From a virus: a stretch of 28,187 nucleotides of DNA. The stretch covers positions 1 to 28,187 of the IMG/VR virus record IMGVR_UViG_3300008450_000347. One strand, 5' to 3'. The notes under the pieces were generated by a model. That model did not search any database. It saw only the letters and a program-made list of their open reading frames with translations, and was not told the origin of the DNA. How positions within the stretch are numbered: the first letter of the stretch is position 1; every line of letters starts with the position of its first letter. A program made the position numbers and the translations under genes. Shown piece after piece: positions 1 to 27,176 of this stretch.

Positions 1-573
1 GCCCGTCACGTCGAAGCGGTCGATGCCCGCCGCGCTGCCACGATACTCGAACGTCTCCGCGTTCAGCGTGCCGCCGGAGTTCGCGTCGTTCGTGCAGACG
101 ATCGTCATCGCCTGCGCGACGAACTGCGCCTCAATGTCGTAGTTGTAGCGGTCCTTCGTCAGCCGCGTCGCCGTGCCCGTGCCCGTGCCCGTGAGCGTGA
201 ACGATCCGAAGGTGAAGTTCCGGGACTGGACCGTGACGGGCGTTCCCGCCGTGGCGAAGGACTCGTACAGGCGAGTCAGGACCGCCGCGACGTTCAGGTC
301 CGGGTAGAGCTTCACGCGCCCGTAGGTGACCCAAAGCGCGTTCAGGCAGGCATTCACCGAGGACGGCGCGACCGTGCCGACGATCGCGGCGCGAAGGGCG
401 GCGAGAGCGTTCTGCGTCCCGGGCGTCGAGTCGTTCGGCGTCTCGTCGAGAACGTCGAGCTGCATCGTGACGAAGTTCGGCGTGTTCGAGACGCCGAAGT
501 CCTCGATCTCGTCGAAGATCTTGATGACCTTGCCGATGACGGTGCGGAGGTCAGTTTCGCTCGGAAGGCTCAT
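1..573 (-). CDS. Hypothetical virion protein downstream of the head genes, partial at left edge
   Basis: The minus-strand frame is open from the ATG at 573 to the window edge, giving 191 codons without a stop, so the C-terminus is missing. GGAGA lies about 8 nt upstream of the ATG, and the start overlaps the small upstream frame by 23 bp. The N-terminus (MSLPSETDLRTVIGKVIKIF) looks helical. The middle is rich in Thr, Gly and Val like a beta-rich structural protein and contains a Thr-Gly repeat linker coded by a tandem hexamer. It follows the capsid gene block, so a head-completion or connector-proximal virion role is inferred from position only. I do not recognise a family. Confidence 0.75.
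   Translation of the reverse strand, partial: MSLPSETDLRTVIGKVIKIFDEIEDFGVSNTPNFVTMQLDVLDETPNDSTPGTQNALAALRAAIVGTVAPSSVNACLNALWVTYGRVKLYPDLNVAAVLTRLYESFATAGTPVTVQSRNFTFGSFTLTGTGTGTATRLTKDRYNYDIEAQFVAQAMTIVCTNDANSGGTLNAETFEYRGSAAGIDRFDVTG
173..193. repeat. Tandem hexamer GTGCCC, 3.5 copies
   Basis: The hexamer GTGCCC occurs at 173, 179 and 185, followed by GTG. On the coding strand it encodes alternating Thr-Gly in the first virion gene. It keeps frame in multiples of six, so copy changes would lengthen or shorten the linker without a frameshift. Confidence 0.8.
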
Positions 574-7479: not shown

Positions 7480-7565
7480 CCGAAGGACTCTTCGTCGCCT
7501 GCATCCTCGGCTCCTACTTCCTCGGGCTCGCGATGTGGTGGTGGTGGCGCGGGGCGAAGGCGTGA
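7476..7565 (+). CDS. Single-pass membrane micropeptide, 29 aa
   Basis: A GTG overlaps the previous stop (GTGA) and the frame ends in a GTGA overlap with the next gene, so both junctions support coding. The peptide is one hydrophobic segment (LFVACILGSYFLGLAMWWWW) with a basic RGAKA tail, predicting a membrane helix with its C-terminus inside. Function is unknown; small membrane proteins in such cassettes can act in superinfection exclusion or lysis, which is not shown here. Confidence 0.6.
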   Translation: MTEGLFVACILGSYFLGLAMWWWWRGAKA

Positions 7566-7975
7566 CGAGGCGAGCGCCGCGCTACTTCGAGATGAAGAAC
7601 GTCGGTCTTCCTAGACGCATCCTCGGTAACCCGGACCTTGTCGATCAAGAAGAGCGCGACGAACTAATCCGTCGGACGCTCGCGTCGATGCCTTGGCGGA
7701 TGAGAACCGCGATTGAACTTAGGTACGGGCTCGACAGTCGGCGCAAGCCGCGCACCCTAGATGAAGTCGGCGCGGTGCTTGGGGTCAGCCGCGAGCGAAC
7801 TCGTCAGGTGCTTTCCACGGCAATCCGCGTCGCCTACAACCGCGCGATGGCAGTTGGGCTTGACCTTTGGCTCCCTGGTCGCCACGAGGACGACCGGAGG
7901 AGGTATTGGGACGGGCGACGCTGGAACTATCAGCTCGTGGGCTCTTGCCGACCGCGCGTTCACGCTGGCGACTAG
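7562..7975 (+). CDS. Sigma-70 region-4-like protein, 137 aa
   Basis: Residues 43-93 match sigma-70 region 4: MPWRMRTAIELRYGL, then TLDEVGAVLGVSRERTRQVL, the -35-recognising helix-turn-helix with its typical SRERTRQ recognition helix. Regions 2 and 3 are absent, so it is not a complete sigma factor. It could bind RNA polymerase beta-flap or promoter -35 DNA as a transcription modulator. The C-terminal tail is Trp/Arg-rich. Codons such as CTA, AGA, CTT and ATT are more frequent than in neighbours, hinting at separate origin. The GTG overlaps the previous stop. The TAG shares the palindrome CTAG with the stop of the converging gpF gene. Confidence 0.8.
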   Translation: MTRRAPRYFEMKNVGLPRRILGNPDLVDQEERDELIRRTLASMPWRMRTAIELRYGLDSRRKPRTLDEVGAVLGVSRERTRQVLSTAIRVAYNRAMAVGLDLWLPGRHEDDRRRYWDGRRWNYQLVGSCRPRVHAGD

Positions 7976-18345: not shown

Positions 18346-18530
18346 CGGACACCGCACAGTCCCGAGTAGCCGCCGCGAGCAGCCGGAATGCTGTCCAAGG
18401 CGATCCGTGTCCACCCGTGAGGGTGGCGCTCTGCGGCGGTTTCTCGGAAAGGGGGTGATGTGAACACGCGATCGACCTTGGACTCCGGCAGGTTACACCT
18501 CCGCCGCATCCCGCGCAAGAGGCTACGCAC
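18342..18530 (-). CDS. Possible small basic protein, 62 aa
   Basis: A GTG at 18530 overlaps the stop of the alpha-CTD gene by 8 nt (GTGCGTAG), and the stop overlaps the initiator start (ATGA). The same 8-nt overlap form (ATGCGTAG) is used at 19673-19680. The peptide is Arg-rich, with PESKVDRVFTSPPF in the middle, and resembles no family. Codons such as ACA, TCA, CCT and CGA are unlike the neighbours and no SD is present, so it may be a coupling spacer rather than a functional gene. Confidence 0.4.
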   Translation of the reverse strand: MRSLLRGMRRRCNLPESKVDRVFTSPPFRETAAERHPHGWTRIALDSIPAARGGYSGLCGVR

Positions 18531-18948
18531 GGGGCGGAACGACGACCTTCTCGTCGCGCAGAGCGAGCCCGTGCCGCCCGAGTGCCTCGCGGATCTCGAC
18601 CAAGGACAGCGTCCCCATGCCGGGCAATACGAGAAGGTCCGTGTAACTCTTCTCGGTCAGTTCACCGACCGTGCTGATGTGCGCCCGGCGCAGGATGGTG
18701 CGCGAGCGGACCGACAGTTCAAGAACGTCGGTTGCCTCGCCGTAGATCGGAGCGGAGCGATCCACCAGGGGGATTTCGAGACGCTCGGCGATCACCGTGG
18801 CGGACTCCTTGAAGCAGATCGCCGTAGATCCGCCCATGATGTAGAGCCAGCATCCTCCGCTCGGGCGCTCCTGAATGGCTGTCACCGAGTAGTGGGAGAT
18901 GTACCAGACGACGCCGTCGTTCGCGGTGAGCTTGGCAAGCTGCTTCAT
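18523..18948 (-). CDS. FlbD-like domain fused to an RNA polymerase alpha-CTD-like domain, 141 aa
   Basis: The ATG at 18948 has GGAGG 7 nt upstream. Residues 74-132 match the C-terminal domain of bacterial RNA polymerase alpha: VLELSVRSRTILRRAHISTV, GELTEKSYTDLLVLPGMG, then SLVEIREALGRHGLAL. Aligned to E. coli, Arg265 (here R81), Gly296 (G112), Ser299 (S115) and Glu302 (E118) are kept. Asn268 is Thr84, Asn294 is Gly110 and Lys298 is Leu114. Residues 10-58 (VVWYISHYSVTAIQ, then WLYIMGGSTAICFKES) resemble the small FlbD-like beta-hairpin domain. There is no alpha-NTD, so it cannot assemble polymerase. It may act as a transcription factor that binds UP-element DNA or sigma. Confidence 0.8.
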   Translation of the reverse strand: MKQLAKLTANDGVVWYISHYSVTAIQERPSGGCWLYIMGGSTAICFKESATVIAERLEIPLVDRSAPIYGEATDVLELSVRSRTILRRAHISTVGELTEKSYTDLLVLPGMGTLSLVEIREALGRHGLALRDEKVVVPPRA

Positions 18949-18950
18949 GG

Positions 18951-19274
18951 CTACGCCTCCGGTCCGATGAACGACTCGTCCTTCGTGTCCACGCCGTCGG
19001 CGTCGAGGCTGATCTGCACGAGCGCCGCGAGAAGCTCGTTCTTGGAGTGCGCCCATGATGCCTGCCGCGCTGTCACGCGGACGTTCGCCAGTCTCCGGCT
19101 GAACTCGTCGCGCTCGCAAAGCGGGCAAACTTCCAGCGGATCGTGCTGCATGACGTGGACGATCGTCTTGTACCCGTCGCGTTCGTAGAACAGCGAGTGG
19201 TTGCGGACGGAGCGCCCGGGTCCGTCGTCGATCGTCACGGAGTCCATCGTGTAGCGGCCACGTTCGTTGCTCAT
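18951..19274 (-). CDS. Hypothetical protein, 107 aa, first gene of the replication operon
   Basis: The ATG at 19274 follows GAGGG by 3 nt; another ATG at 19286 is 2 nt from GGAGAA and less well spaced. The first ~45 residues are a beta-rich segment (YTMDSVTIDDGPGRSVRNHS). A single CPLCERDEF knuckle comes next, then a helical end with HSKNELLAALVQISLDAD. One CxxC alone could form a zinc site only in a dimer. It is separated by 2 nt from the alpha-CTD gene and presumably co-transcribed. No family. Confidence 0.72.
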   Translation of the reverse strand: MSNERGRYTMDSVTIDDGPGRSVRNHSLFYERDGYKTIVHVMQHDPLEVCPLCERDEFSRRLANVRVTARQASWAHSKNELLAALVQISLDADGVDTKDESFIGPEA

Positions 19275-19546: not shown

Positions 19547-19680
19547 GCCAGCCTCTTGAGACAGCGGAGACATTCAATCCGCCACTCGTAGCGCGGGTGC
19601 GACGGGCGGACGAAGACGTACCAGCCGATCGGGCGGTGGAAGCCGAGAAGGCACCGCAGGCGGCGGAGGGCGCTACGCAT
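19543..19680 (-). CDS. Small CxxC protein, 45 aa
   Basis: The ATG at 19680 overlaps the stop of the helicase-methyltransferase gene by 8 nt (ATGCGTAG) and the stop overlaps the next start (ATGA). It reads LRCLLGFHRPIGWYVFVR, then a CLRC knuckle near the end; with the first Cys and His it may hold one zinc ion. Similar mini-proteins (GFH near the start, CxxC at the end) are common in high-GC phages. Function is unknown. Confidence 0.66.
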   Translation of the reverse strand: MRSALRRLRCLLGFHRPIGWYVFVRPSHPRYEWRIECLRCLKRLA

Positions 19681-21880
19681 CGGCGTTCACCATCCCGAAC
19701 AGCCCCTCCTCCTTCCGCGCCGCTTCCGCCTTCCGCACGTTCGCGACGGCGCACCGGAAGTACGAGGCCTTCAGTTCGACGCCGAGCGCCTTCCGCCCGA
19801 AACGGACCGCCTGATACGCCTCGGAGCCGATGCCGAGGAACGGCGTGAACACCGTCTCCCCCTTGTTCGACCAGAGCCGGATGCACCGCTCGATCGTGCC
19901 CAACTGGAGCGGGCACAGGTGGCGCTCGTCCTTGTCCTCCCGCGCCTCCCGCACTTGCAGCGTGTCGGCTTCCTTGATCCCGTACCAGATCGGACGAGCC
20001 CACTCGATCCAGTCCTCGCGCGTCACGTCGTCGTTCTGGATCGGGACGGCGTTCTCGCCCGGCTTGCGGAAGACGCAGATGTAGTCCGCGAGCGCGGGGC
20101 GCAGCCACGAGGAGTCCCGTTCCTTCTGGACGAAGAGGAGCGACTTCGACTTGGTACGGATGGCCTGCGCCTGCGGGCACTTGTCGATCGTCACTTCCCC
20201 GTGGAAGATCCACCCCGCCGCGATGAACTCGCGGACGAGGTCGCCGCGAATATCCTTCACGCCGATGTAGCCGTCGCGGGAGAGCATCGCGGGAACGTTC
20301 GCGATGTGGACCGCTGCGAGCCGCCCCGGCTTCGTGACGCGGAGGAGTTCCGGGATCGCGAACCGGAAGTGCGTCCAGAACTCATCGTCGTTCTTGCAGT
20401 TCCCGATGTCGCGCGGCGAGTTGGAGTAGGTGAACAGCGACGAGAACGGCGGGGAGAACACGGACAGGTCCACGCTGTCCGTGGCGATCTTCCGCTTCAT
20501 CGTCTCGACGCAGTCCCCGTTGTGAAGCGTCCAGCTGTCGCCGGACACGGACTCCTCGCGGTAGTTGTCGCGCTCGCGCTCGCTCATCTTGAGGCTCTCC
20601 CGTTCGTAGTCGCGGACGGACGCGACGATCCTCGAGGCAAGTTCGGACGCCTCGATCTCCTTGCGCTTCACGTTCTGGACGATCTCCTGTTCCACGTCCG
20701 CGATGACGATGCGGACGCGCACGCTCCGCGTCTGCCCGAAGCGGTAGCAGCGCCGGATCGCTTGGTAGTAGCCCTCGTATGAGTCGGAGAGCCCGAGGAA
20801 CGCCATCGAGGCGCACCTTTGCAGGTTCAACCCGAATCCAGCAATCGACACCTTCGACACTAGGACCCGGTAGTCCCCGCGCAGGAAGCCAAGGATCGCC
20901 GCTTCCTTCTCCTCGTCGCTCATGGCTCCGGTCACTTCCACCGCGCCCCGAATGCCCTCCGCCGCGCGTTCGCTTTCGAGGTTCAGCCCGCACCAGACGA
21001 TCCACGGTTCGTCATCGGCGTTGACCATCTCGACGGTGGCCGCGATGCGAGCCTCCGCCGTGGACTTGCGGATATCGCTTCGGTCCTTCACCCCGCCCAT
21101 CCCCGTAAAGAACAGCGAGCCGGGCGACGCGACGGGAACGGGCACGATGACGGGGGCGATGTCCAGCGGCGGCAGGATGTACCCGTCGTCCTCAAATCCG
21201 AGGTCGGACGGGAACTGGACGAACATTGCCCACGACGCGATCCACTTGTAGAAGCTCTCCGCCGCGTGCCCCTTGAGCCGCCACGACTGCTCATCGTGGA
21301 CGAACCACGTCGCGAGCATCTCGATCCGTCGCATGATCCCGAGGAACTCCGCGTGATTGCCGATCTCGCTCGTGTCATTCGGCGCGGGCGTCGCGGTGCA
21401 AGCGAGACGGTACGGCGTGTCGCGGAACGCTTCGATCAGCGCCTCGCGCGTCGCGCCGTCAAAGTTCTTGAGGATGCTCGACTCGTCGAGGACCACGGCG
21501 TCGAACGCGGCGGGGTCGATCTTGTGCAGCGAGTCGTAGTTCACGACGTTCAGCCCTTCGCGGGGCGTCCAGTTGTCGCGCAGGTCGTGGACGCGGACTC
21601 CGATCGTCGCCGCCTCGCGGATCGTCTGAGCGCCCACGGCGAGGGGGGCGAGGATGATCGCCTTGCCCTTCGACACGAGCCGCGCCCACTCGATCTGCAT
21701 TCGCGTCTTCCCGAGCCCGGTACCGCAGAACAGCGCCGCGCGTCCGCGCATCGCCGCCCACGCCACGAGCGCCCGCTGGAACGGGAACAGGGACGGGTGA
21801 ATGTCGTCGTCATCCACGGCGATCCCCTGCGGGGCGACGCGGATCTCTTTCGACGCCAGAAACGCCTCGTACTCGCTCAC
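19673..21880 (-). CDS. SNF2-type helicase fused to a beta-class DNA methyltransferase, 735 aa
   Basis: The N-terminal half is a superfamily-2 DNA translocase: FPFQ, CGTGLGKT (52-59), VVLDESS (129-135), CTATPAPND (161-169) and motif VI QAIRRCYRFGQTRSVRV (373-389). From about 447 a methyltransferase follows in beta-class order. LHNGDCVETM comes first, catalytic SPPF (476-479) next, then the AdoMet loop FTPFLGIGS (678-686) and VELKASYF (701-708). SPPF suggests N4-cytosine or N6-adenine methylation. The combination would couple DNA tracking to methylation, perhaps to protect phage DNA or to mark replicated DNA. The GTG start has a strong GGAGGAG SD and overlaps the upstream stop (GTGA). The C-terminus ends EEGLFGMVNADA. 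Confidence 0.85.
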   Translation of the reverse strand: MSEYEAFLASKEIRVAPQGIAVDDDDIHPSLFPFQRALVAWAAMRGRAALFCGTGLGKTRMQIEWARLVSKGKAIILAPLAVGAQTIREAATIGVRVHDLRDNWTPREGLNVVNYDSLHKIDPAAFDAVVLDESSILKNFDGATREALIEAFRDTPYRLACTATPAPNDTSEIGNHAEFLGIMRRIEMLATWFVHDEQSWRLKGHAAESFYKWIASWAMFVQFPSDLGFEDDGYILPPLDIAPVIVPVPVASPGSLFFTGMGGVKDRSDIRKSTAEARIAATVEMVNADDEPWIVWCGLNLESERAAEGIRGAVEVTGAMSDEEKEAAILGFLRGDYRVLVSKVSIAGFGLNLQRCASMAFLGLSDSYEGYYQAIRRCYRFGQTRSVRVRIVIADVEQEIVQNVKRKEIEASELASRIVASVRDYERESLKMSERERDNYREESVSGDSWTLHNGDCVETMKRKIATDSVDLSVFSPPFSSLFTYSNSPRDIGNCKNDDEFWTHFRFAIPELLRVTKPGRLAAVHIANVPAMLSRDGYIGVKDIRGDLVREFIAAGWIFHGEVTIDKCPQAQAIRTKSKSLLFVQKERDSSWLRPALADYICVFRKPGENAVPIQNDDVTREDWIEWARPIWYGIKEADTLQVREAREDKDERHLCPLQLGTIERCIRLWSNKGETVFTPFLGIGSEAYQAVRFGRKALGVELKASYFRCAVANVRKAEAARKEEGLFGMVNADA

Positions 21881-22005
21881 GCTTTCTCCTCCGTCCCCAC
21901 CGGGAACCGCTTGGAACACGACTCGCAGACGCCCAGGTCCGCGCTCACGTCGAGGATCTCGCCGCCGCATCGGTCGCACGAGACGATGCCGTCGCCGGGG
22001 CTCAT
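21877..22005 (-). CDS. Small zinc-ribbon protein, 42 aa
   Basis: ATGA overlap upstream and GTGA overlap downstream fix the gene. CDRCGGEILD and CESCSKRF form a complete four-Cys zinc ribbon. It precedes the helicase-methyltransferase and is translated with it. A role as a nucleic-acid or partner-binding adaptor is possible. Confidence 0.7.
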   Translation of the reverse strand: MSPGDGIVSCDRCGGEILDVSADLGVCESCSKRFPVGTEEKA

Positions 22006-23588: not shown

Positions 23589-23839
23589 AGCCAGAGGACA
23601 TCTTTGAGATCGCGCGTGCGGTAGCGCCGTGCGTCAAGGGTCACCATCGGTGCGTCGCCGGGCACGCCATCGACATTCACGTTCTCGGCATGGTCGAGGA
23701 TACGATCCGGATTGCGACGCGCCGGGAACGCTCCCGCTGCGCCGCGTTGGCGCAGACGGTTGGAGATGACGACGCGGAGCCGCATTCCGCCCGCGAAGTC
23801 GCGTACCGCATCGCCGCCGCAATCGAAGGTGGATCATGA
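23585..23839 (+). CDS. Small hypothetical protein, 84 aa
   Basis: The GTG overlaps the upstream stop (GTGA) and its stop overlaps the exonuclease start (ATGA). It has CVKGHHRCVAGHAIDIHVLG, with Cys and His residues that may bind zinc, and a helical end (SAREVAYRIAAAIEGGS). Co-translation with the exonuclease is the only functional hint. Confidence 0.66.
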   Translation: MKPEDIFEIARAVAPCVKGHHRCVAGHAIDIHVLGMVEDTIRIATRRERSRCAALAQTVGDDDAEPHSAREVAYRIAAAIEGGS

Positions 23840-24726
23840 ACCTCACCCACTACGCCGACCGCGCCGCATGGCTTGAGGCACGCCGCTCCGGCCTTGGCGG
23901 CAGCGACGTTCCGGTCATCCTCGGCTTCGCCCGCTACGGCAAGACTCCGCTCTCCGTCTGGACGAGCAAGGTTCTGCCGCCGGAGGAGGAGACGGAGTCG
24001 TACACGCTCAAGCGCGGGACGTTCATGGAGGGCTTCATCGCCGCCCGTCTCCGCGAGGAGGCGGGGCTTCGCAGCGTGGACCGCGAGCATGACGCCATCG
24101 TGACGGCGGACGATCCGTGCCTGCTCTACTCGCCCGACGCCTTCGCTACGGAGGAGGACGGCACGCTCGTCCTCTGCGAGTTCAAGTCCCGCCTCCGCGA
24201 CGCCAGCGAGTGGGAGGAAGGCGTCCCGCCGGACGTGGTCGCGCAGGCGCAGCACGGGATGGAAGTCTGTAACTTGCCCGCCTGCTACGTCGCCTGCGAC
24301 ACGGGCAACGAACTGCGCTGGCAGCGGATCGAGCGTGACCCGAAGTGGGCAACGGAAGTGCGCCCGCGCCTCATCGCGTGGTGGAACACCTACGTCGTCC
24401 CGCAGGTTCCGCCGCCGCCGGAGAGCGAGGACGCGGCTGTCCTTGGGCGCATCTATCCTCGGGAGGACGCGGGCAAGACGATCGCGCTGCCGGGGGAGTT
24501 CCTGGCGCTGCGGGACGAGTTGAACGAGGCGGAGGCGATCAAGTCCGCCGCCGAGGCGAAGATCGACGAGATCAAGAACCGTGTCCGCGCCGCGATGGGA
24601 GACGCCGCCGCTGGCGTTCTCGCGGACGGAAGCGGTTGGACGTGGAAGGTGCAGAAGCGGAAGGCGTACACCGTGGAGGCGGGCGAGTCGCGCGTCCTCC
24701 GGGCGTACAAGAGCAAGGAGAAGTGA
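23836..24726 (+). CDS. YqaJ-type (lambda exonuclease-like) recombination nuclease, 296 aa
   Basis: The protein matches the YqaJ viral recombinase family, a 5'-3' dsDNA exonuclease that makes 3' single strands for the annealase. Motifs are R..GLGGSDVPVILGF (17-31), the Glu-containing GTFMEGF (61-67), SPDAF (99-103, metal ligand D101), LCEFKS (113-118, E115 and K117) and QAQHGM (137-142). The C-terminal 75 residues add a helical extension with a final basic strand. It is directly followed by RecT, the usual partner. The ATGA start overlaps the preceding gene. Confidence 0.9.
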   Translation: MNLTHYADRAAWLEARRSGLGGSDVPVILGFARYGKTPLSVWTSKVLPPEEETESYTLKRGTFMEGFIAARLREEAGLRSVDREHDAIVTADDPCLLYSPDAFATEEDGTLVLCEFKSRLRDASEWEEGVPPDVVAQAQHGMEVCNLPACYVACDTGNELRWQRIERDPKWATEVRPRLIAWWNTYVVPQVPPPPESEDAAVLGRIYPREDAGKTIALPGEFLALRDELNEAEAIKSAAEAKIDEIKNRVRAAMGDAAAGVLADGSGWTWKVQKRKAYTVEAGESRVLRAYKSKEK

Positions 24727-24727
24727 A

Positions 24728-25522
24728 ATGGGCGAGATCGTGACGCGGGAGCAGGCGGAGAAGAACGTCCTCGCCGCTCTCAACGACAAGAAGGTGCAGG
24801 CGCAACTCGGGGCGGCGCTCCCGGGCGTCGGCATCAAGCCGGAGACGTTCGTGCGTTGGTGCGTCACCGCGCTCCGCAAGAACCCGGCGCTCCTCAAGAC
24901 GAACCGCCAGTCGCTCCTCGGGGCGATGGTGCAGGCGGCGCAGCTTGGGCTCGACCCGTCCGGCGCGACGGGTCAGGCGTACCTCGTCCCGTTCAAGGAC
25001 GAATGCACGTTCATCGTGGGCTACAAAGGCTACATCAACCTCGCGTACCGGAGCGGGCAGATCGCCAGCATCGACGCGAAGGTGGTGTACGCGAACGACG
25101 CCTTCTCCTACGCCTACGGGCTGAACCCGAAGCTGGAACACGTCCCGTGCGACGGCGACCGGGGCGAGCTTCGCGCGGCCTACGCCATCGCGAAGATCAA
25201 GGGGGGCGACACGGTGTTCGTGGTTCTGACGGCTGGGGACATCGCCCGGATCAAGGCGTCGTCCGCGTCCGCGCGTTCGGCGTCCTCGCCGTGGGCATCG
25301 CATCCCGCGTCCATGTGGCAGAAGTCGGCGGTGCGGCAGCTTTCGAAGCTCCTCCCGCTCTCCACGGAGGCGATGACGGCGCTCGGTCGCGACGAGGACG
25401 ACGACGAGCGGGGCATCCCGCCGATCATCAGCATCGACGACTTCACGATCACGGACGCTGAGCCCGCTTCCGCCGCGCCCGGCGTCTCGTCCATCGAGCA
25501 GGACCGGAAGGACAACGCCTAA
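24728..25522 (+). CDS. recT: RecT-family single-strand annealing protein, 264 aa
   Basis: The protein binds ssDNA and anneals complementary strands during phage recombination. The RecT core is seen in the N-terminal helices, QAAQLGLDPSGATGQAYLVP (69-88), then CTFIVGYKGYINLAYRSG (93-110), the strand SIDAKVVYANDAFSYAYG and the MWQKSAVRQLSKLLPLS helix near residue 200. The C-terminal 50 residues are acidic and disordered and may touch partners. The ATG is 2 nt after the exonuclease stop; a longer GTG/ATG frame upstream overlaps the nuclease and is not used. Confidence 0.92.
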   Translation: MGEIVTREQAEKNVLAALNDKKVQAQLGAALPGVGIKPETFVRWCVTALRKNPALLKTNRQSLLGAMVQAAQLGLDPSGATGQAYLVPFKDECTFIVGYKGYINLAYRSGQIASIDAKVVYANDAFSYAYGLNPKLEHVPCDGDRGELRAAYAIAKIKGGDTVFVVLTAGDIARIKASSASARSASSPWASHPASMWQKSAVRQLSKLLPLSTEAMTALGRDEDDDERGIPPIISIDDFTITDAEPASAAPGVSSIEQDRKDNA

Positions 25523-25935
25523 TGCTCAACTCCGTTGTCGTCGTCGGTCCCGTCGTCTCCGTAAAAGAGCGTGGGTCCGTCGTGAAGGTCGTGATCGCAG
25601 GCGTCCGCGAGTTCAAGGGCAACGCCGAGGAGACGCGCGTCGAGGTCGTCGTGTTCTCGCGGAACGCGGACGCGGCGCGAGCCCTGCGCGAAGGCGAGAT
25701 CGTCTGCGTTCGGGGTCGCGTCGAGACGAAGTGGCGCGAGTCGAAGACGGGGGGCGAGTGGGCGGCGACGGACGTGATCGCGGACGAGATCCGCGCCATC
25801 GCGCCGGCGGCACCGCGCCCGTCCGCCCCGCCGCCGAACCGGGCTCCCGCTGGGAAGCCTCCGGCGGATGACGGCTGGGGCGACGGTGGAATTCCGTTCG
25901 CGTGGCTCCTGCCGCTGCTGGCGCTGCTCAACTAA
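25522..25935 (+). CDS. ssb: Single-stranded DNA-binding (SSB-like) protein, 137 aa
   Basis: Residues 1-95 form an OB fold of SSB type: LNSVVVVGPVV start, TRVEVVVFSRNADAARALRE, EIVCVRGRVETKWRE. Residues 96-115 are a Pro-rich linker, and an acidic tip ADDGWGDGGIPF (115-126) resembles the SSB interaction peptide. Unusually, the tip is followed by 11 hydrophobic residues (AWLLPLLALLN). The ATG shares one base with the RecT stop (TAATG). It would coat ssDNA for RecT and the replisome. Confidence 0.82.
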   Translation: MLNSVVVVGPVVSVKERGSVVKVVIAGVREFKGNAEETRVEVVVFSRNADAARALREGEIVCVRGRVETKWRESKTGGEWAATDVIADEIRAIAPAAPRPSAPPPNRAPAGKPPADDGWGDGGIPFAWLLPLLALLN

Positions 25936-26355: not shown

Positions 26356-26745
26356 ATGAAGCTCGACGAACTCAAGAGGCTGGACGCGGCGGCGACGCCC
26401 GCGCCGTGGGCTATCGAGGACACCGACGACGGGTTCCGGTACGTCATGGCGACGCACGATCGCCCGTGGAGGCAGCCGATCTGCTCCAACGTGACGTACT
26501 ACCCAACGGCGGTCGGCGTGCAGGATCAAGCCCTGATCGCCGCCGCCCGGAACGCCCTGCCGAAGCTGATCGCGGTGGCCGAGGCGGCGAAGGAACTGCT
26601 CGCGACGGAAGCGGTCCAGGCGACCGTCGAGCGCATCCGCTCCGCACGCGCGGGCGGGGGGGAGGTCACGCAGGCGGATTGCGACTTCGAGTACGCCTAC
26701 GCCTTGGCGAAGGGCTCCATCGCGGAACTGGAGGCGCAGCCGTGA
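26356..26745 (+). CDS. Ead/Ea22-like phage protein, 129 aa
   Basis: The ATG follows AAGGAG. Residues 9-20 (LDAAATPAPWAI) and 60-83 (ALIAAARNALPKLIAVAEAA) are the typical start and helix of ead/Ea22-like proteins found in many temperate and lytic phages. Their function is unknown. The end is helical and overlaps the RusA start (GTGA). Confidence 0.75.
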   Translation: MKLDELKRLDAAATPAPWAIEDTDDGFRYVMATHDRPWRQPICSNVTYYPTAVGVQDQALIAAARNALPKLIAVAEAAKELLATEAVQATVERIRSARAGGGEVTQADCDFEYAYALAKGSIAELEAQP

Positions 26746-27176
26746 CCATCTCCTTCTTCGCCCCCGGCGACCCCAAGGGCCAGCCCCGCCCCCGCGCGTT
26801 CAGCCGGGGAGGGCACGCCCGCGTCTTCGACCCCGGGACGGCGGAGGGGTGGAAGTCGGCGGTCGCGGTCGCGGCGAAGCCTCACATCCCGGCGCAGCCC
26901 ATCGCCGGGGCGGTGTACGTCACGCTGGACTTCTACTTCCGCCGCCCCAAGTCGCACTACCGGACGGGCAAGCGGGCGGGCGAACTGCGCGACGATGCCC
27001 CGGAAGTGTTCCTGTCGAAGCCAGACGCGGACAACCTTGCGAAGGCGGTCCTCGACGCGATGACGACGATCGGGTTCTGGAAGGACGACGCGCAGGTGTG
27101 GAACCTCAGCGTCAGCAAGCGGTACGACCGAGACGGACGCCCGGGTGTGTGCGTGGAAGTGATCTCGTCAAAGTAA
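26742..27176 (+). CDS. rusA: RusA-family Holliday junction resolvase, 144 aa
   Basis: The protein matches RusA-type crossover junction endodeoxyribonucleases. GDPKGQPRPRAF (9-20) is at the N-terminus, the catalytic acid motif KPDADNLAKAVLDAM (93-107) is in the middle, and KDDAQV (114-119) follows. D95, D97 and D115/D116 are the likely metal ligands. It cuts Holliday junctions or branched DNA before packaging and completes the YqaJ-RecT-SSB set. The GTG overlaps the preceding stop (GTGA). Length is close to that of RusA (about 120-140 aa). Confidence 0.9.
   Translation: MTISFFAPGDPKGQPRPRAFSRGGHARVFDPGTAEGWKSAVAVAAKPHIPAQPIAGAVYVTLDFYFRRPKSHYRTGKRAGELRDDAPEVFLSKPDADNLAKAVLDAMTTIGFWKDDAQVWNLSVSKRYDRDGRPGVCVEVISSK

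Follow-up and report, generated by a model that had tools for sequence, protein, structure and literature searches.

Locus and coding capacity

The window examined here is the entire contig of a 28,187-base virus record. Its minus strand carries a single ORF of 735 codons that starts with GTG at position 21880, stops at 19673 without an internal stop, and encodes one intact 735-aa polypeptide in which a SNF2-fold ATPase is joined to a beta-class methyltransferase (MTase) (Table 1). A preliminary description of this DNA had located a helicase and an MTase in one ORF at these positions, and both its coordinates and its motifs proved to be correct.

Table 1. Features of the fusion gene and its product (window positions; residues of the 735-aa protein)
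Feature	Residues	Positions	Strand	Basis or remark
SNF2 ATPase–beta-class DNA MTase fusion gene		19673..21880	−	Single ORF, PHROG_16 match
Shine-Dalgarno-like GGAGGAG		21886..21892	−	5 bases ahead of the GTG start; read from the sequence
SNF2/SF2 ATPase domain	about 30–410	20651..21793	−	Pfam Helicase_C, Foldseek; motifs invariant in relatives
Helicase motif GTGLGKT	53–59			
Helicase motif DESS	132–135			
Helicase motif TATPAPN	162–168			
Helicase motif GFGLN	348–352			
Helicase motif QAIRRCYRFGQ	373–383			
Linker, short: long helix, then low-confidence hinge	411–446	20543..20650	−	AlphaFold2 model
In-frame ATG (Met432), GGGAG upstream, where split MTase genes begin	432	20585..20587	−	Alignment with split MTases
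Beta-class amino-MTase domain	447–716	19733..20542	−	Pfam N6_N4_Mtase, TTHA0409 match
MTase motif IV, SPPF	476–479	20444..20455	−	Conserved in relatives
MTase motif I, FTPFLGIGS, AdoMet binding	678–686	19823..19849	−	Conserved FxGxGS

A small zinc-ribbon-like ORF (CxxC...CxxC; 21877–22005, minus strand) ends in a stop codon that overlaps the fusion gene's GTG start (GTGA), an arrangement that suggests translational coupling. The fusion gene is also adjoined by an ORF at 18523–18951 (minus strand) that ends in an RNA polymerase alpha-CTD domain (Pfam, 2e-11) and possibly encodes a phage transcription factor. The window further encodes a Mu-like portal, an F-like protein, a gpT-like head protein, a terminase, DnaB, a replication initiator-like protein, YqaJ/RecE, RecT, SSB, and RusA. 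The genes for YqaJ/RecE, RecT, an SSB-like protein and, further on, a RusA-type resolvase form a recombination cassette on the plus strand (23836–25935 and 26406–27176). An ORF with a sigma-70 region 4 domain (7535–7975, plus strand; 5e-11) lies on the strand opposite to the surrounding head genes.

Both halves of the protein retain their catalytic motifs

The profile of PHROG_16 ("DNA helicase") matches residues 26 to 734 with an E value of 6.8e-66 (profile positions 268–928 of 986). Because both halves fall within this match, the helicase–MTase arrangement already resides inside a curated phage protein family. An AlphaFold2 model prepared with 65 fused homologues as input reached a pLDDT of 86.2 and a pTM of 0.77, with values under 50 at the hinge between the halves (residues 434–436). 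By Pfam and by this model, the chain is fully accounted for by the ATPase and the MTase, and because no domain is left over in the model, the chain holds no nuclease.

In the first half, ATPase motifs I, II, III, V, and VI are all intact. Pfam Helicase_C matched residues 313 to 382 above its cut-off (7e-8), and the SNF2 N-lobe profile SNF2-rel_dom fell below its own (0.0012). A Foldseek search of the PDB with the modeled first half returned SNF2 remodellers at the top (Mot1, the BRG1/PBAF motor, CSB, CHD1, and ISW1/ISWI), and also RapA, so that the SNF2 assignment is firm by predicted fold. Across an alignment of relatives from 156 loci, the Walker A lysine is kept in 155 and the DE of motif II in 155, and the TP and PN of motif III and the RR..R.GQ of motif VI are almost invariant.

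The second half matched Pfam N6_N4_Mtase (PF01555) at residues 470 to 711, above the cut-off (4.3e-14), and the Thermus putative modification methylase TTHA0409 (2zie) both by phmmer (1.4e-16) and by Foldseek (TM 0.83 by target length). HNGDC, SPPF, FTPFLGIGS, and GVELK are present in the beta-class order, with motif IV before motif I, and motifs I, II, and IV are intact. Among the same 156 loci, the serine, the second proline, and the phenylalanine of SPPF occur in all, and the first proline in 152; the FxGxGS of motif I is kept in about 150 of the 153 that have sequence at that place. A degenerate AdoMet site, which the preliminary description had named as a finding that would count against it, is thus contradicted by near-invariant motifs, and its assignment of a SNF2 helicase and a beta-class MTase to one polypeptide agrees with Pfam, PHROG_16, and AlphaFold2/Foldseek alike. 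The near-invariance of the catalytic motifs indicates that both activities are under selection.

Most bacterial N4-cytosine MTases carry SPPY and N6-adenine MTases carry DPPY (PMC8885841), and the serine of SPPF therefore favors N4-cytosine over N6-adenine as the predicted target; judged by this motif, the MTase half is probably N4-methylcytosine (m4C)-forming. Distances among relatives show the MTase half to be more conserved than the helicase half. We saw no hypervariability in the presumed target-recognition region (residues about 557–650), which is no more variable than the remaining MTase, and this argues for a fixed or low-complexity target rather than frequent switching of specificity.

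Met432 could possibly be a relic or an internal start that yields a free MTase. The second reading is suggestive in the window, but a linker start preceded by a Shine-Dalgarno-like sequence (any start codon counted) occurs in only 20 of 88 fused loci, and we therefore rejected an internal start as a feature of the family.

Fused and two-gene forms are both common

Many relatives are encoded by two genes with overlapping ATGA ends, and a frameshift error joining two such genes might produce an ORF of this kind, as the preliminary description had recognized. We regard such an artefact as virtually excluded. A contig of another metagenome record in IMG/VR (L002) is 100% identical over 10,205 bp, which speaks against a local frameshift as its origin; the fusion recurs in 87 other distinct relatives, and isolate genomes contain it as well (for example, Synechococcus phage S-CBS3 gp40, Arthrobacter phage Seahorse gp83, and Flavobacterium phage FCV-1).

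The implied rarity of the fusion, by contrast, did not hold: fused and two-gene forms are both common, and the fusion has already been annotated in GenBank and treated in the literature. By tblastn, 324 GenBank phage records contain a homologue; in 304, a single location covers 80% or more of the query, and some homologues are already named "DNA helicase/methylase" (e.g., Seahorse gp83). Scans of IMG/VR gave at least 583 and at least 599 confirmed relatives. One relative, at 47%, sits in a Myxococcales MAG. The deduplicated loci with both halves (n = 163) comprise 88 fused and 75 two-gene forms, although this set is skewed to near relatives and the full-length query favors fused forms. In the two-gene loci, the genes are adjacent in 61 and separated by an insert in 12, and the MTase gene comes first in two (L030 and L143).

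A less biased measure of the pairing was obtained by using each half alone as the query; note that this covers close relatives and that the two resulting sets overlap. Seeded with the helicase, 78 of the 80 best of more than 580 loci had the MTase no more than 1.3 kb away on the same strand (78 of 78 with room on the contig); seeded with the MTase, a helicase was present in 78 of the 80 best of more than 580 (78 of 78 testable). The other four loci are truncated by the end of their contig. A quick helicase tree, made with a simple model, requires 22 transitions between the fused and split states, of which well-supported branches force at least nine; such switching indicates that a working pair has been joined and separated repeatedly. 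Distances in the helicase half correlate with those in the MTase half (r = 0.75; Mantel, 0 of 500), partly because the phages themselves share ancestry. Read most simply, these data mean that the two enzymes act together regardless of whether they form one chain or two. The fusion itself adds little novelty, and the tight pairing is a modest point.

Presence of the gene is patchy within the genus Cheoctovirus. In the mycobacteriophage Fancypants, the halves are two genes in one reading frame, parted only by a single TAA; in Job42, they are fused and contain a large insert. Neither Taj nor Mutaforma13, also of this genus, has a match to the fusion protein anywhere in its complete genome. The gene is therefore dispensable in Cheoctovirus, and its patchy presence is that of an accessory gene, as counter-defence would predict. 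The Job42 product (gp69; L187 3983–7495) is 1170 aa long, and its insert interrupts the MTase half at the point that corresponds to query residues 632–655. Copies of this protein appear in RefSeq as "anaerobic ribonucleoside reductase large subunit," a name that an intein probably explains.

Relationship to known systems

Pfam identified no restriction nuclease in the 28-kb contig, whose ends are not joined and which may be incomplete. The only nucleases found were the YqaJ/RecE exonuclease and the RusA resolvase, both recombination enzymes, in agreement with the preliminary description, which had noted no restriction nuclease nearby. The fusion protein is thus an orphan phage MTase, with no cognate restriction enzyme in the contig. 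Type III and Type ISP restriction-modification enzymes share with it an SF2 motor and an MTase that work together, but the MTase of Type ISP is of the gamma class and a nuclease lies in the same chain. Because the protein has no endonuclease domain and Pfam found no restriction nuclease in the contig, we rejected its placement in either type.

The closest counterparts are PHROG_16 relatives such as S-CBS3 gp40, Seahorse gp83, and Mycobacterium phage helicase|methylase pairs like Fancypants gp69–gp70, which have the same domains, order, and catalytic motifs at 30 to 50% identity over the full length. They differ by lineage in being fused or two-gene, and some, like Job42 gp69, have a large insert in the MTase half. 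TTHA0409 shares the MTase fold and motifs but, unlike the window protein, stands alone without a motor. The MTase–helicase dyad in phages has already been discussed in print (PMC5512222), and the idea put forward in the preliminary description had been published by Iyer et al. Our search of the literature, which covered few subscription journals and no supplements, turned up no experimental work on this family.

DarB of phage P1 and the polyvalent LPD36-MTase-SNF2 proteins likewise couple a DNA MTase to a SNF2-clade ATPase in a phage. DarB is a packaged protein of 2255 aa with an LPD36 domain and a gamma-class NPP(Y/F) MTase N-terminal to the helicase, whereas the window protein has 735 aa, an N-terminal helicase, and a C-terminal beta-class SPPF MTase. 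On these grounds, and with only residues 1 to 30 ahead of its helicase, we rejected its classification as a DarB-like polyvalent protein. By analogy, it may nevertheless work similarly to DarB. Deletion of darB renders P1 sensitive to EcoB and EcoK (PMC11109961; PMC5512222). The mechanism of DarB is still undefined, and plasmid-borne darB provides anti-restriction without need for the protein (PMC11109961). Orphan methylases of actinophages, for which anti-restriction has been suggested, resemble the window gene in their patchy distribution (Gosselin et al. 2023, PMC9957025; Taj_79, 557 aa). Membership in that family was rejected, since Taj carries Taj_79 yet has no match to the window protein.

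Function of the helicase–methyltransferase pair

We favor, with moderate confidence, an orphan phage modification module in which motor and MTase act as a pair, most likely in counter-restriction. The SNF2 motor would bind and translocate on double-stranded DNA without unwinding it, and would carry or load the MTase. The MTase would then methylate exocyclic amino groups of phage DNA, probably N4 of cytosine as judged from SPPF, and the modification would shield newly made or entering phage DNA from host restriction or another modification-sensing defence. This reading is favored by the orphan state of the MTase, the conservation of both active sites, the dispensability of the gene in one genus, and the DarB precedent. 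That the MTase is the better conserved half, with no excess of variation in its presumed target-recognition region, speaks mildly against the simplest arms-race model, in which restriction specificities would drive diversification.

The neighborhood of the gene brings in the main rival, an accessory of replication or recombination in which the motor would act at forks or recombination intermediates and the MTase would mark replicated phage DNA. The window gene lies in an early DNA-metabolism region, between the replication initiator-like and DnaB genes on one side and YqaJ, RecT, SSB, and RusA on the other, and genes beside its relatives include primase, VapE, PolA, DnaB, and VRR_NUC. Such neighbors are equally compatible with a role in replication or repair, but many early phage genes are kept in such a region whatever their function, and the location fails to separate a replication role from counter-defence. 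Moreover, the phage already encodes its own DnaB helicase, and the complete phages Taj and Mutaforma13 of a carrier genus do without the gene. We therefore consider a replication accessory unlikely, albeit worth keeping in view. The preliminary description had offered anti-restriction and the marking of replicated DNA as alternatives: anti-restriction is the more plausible, the neighborhood pointing only weakly to marking, and processive methylation by a translocating enzyme is something we would only infer.

Helicases are likewise paired with MTases in BREX, DISARM, and further defence systems, and PADLOC gave weak matches of the helicase to DrmD, DpdE, and BrxH. The pair might accordingly belong to a defence or superinfection-exclusion module in which modification and motor discriminate competing phages with the aid of an undetected effector. 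These matches, however, span the C-terminal helicase lobe only, and no nuclease or effector domain is present in the protein (by the full model) or elsewhere in the contig (by Pfam); we judge this improbable. Slightly less probable still is control of gene expression or packaging, by which methylation at set sites would regulate phage promoters or a packaging switch. An MTase sequence that is fixed and does not diversify across hosts suggests a constant target, but nothing in the gene context points to such control and presence within one genus is patchy.

Returning to the modification module, a bolder and rather doubtful version is an obligate two-part machine that would be unlike both DarB and every type of restriction-modification system. 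MTase activity would depend on the SNF2 motor, through ATP-driven scanning or the clearing of proteins off DNA, and phage genomes would be densely marked with m4C at a target that is fixed and simple. If methylation does prove to be motor-dependent, the pair would represent phage modification that uses the logic of Type I and Type III enzymes without cleavage. The importance of the family lies in what the pair does, given that it is found in hundreds of phages of many hosts with both active sites kept and the halves almost never apart among close relatives.

In the MTase alignment (A2), residues 565 to 585 fall into two sequence subtypes, DKDPQAQAIRTKA versus WKDPVxxxQRTKALGLLH, which might reflect two targets.
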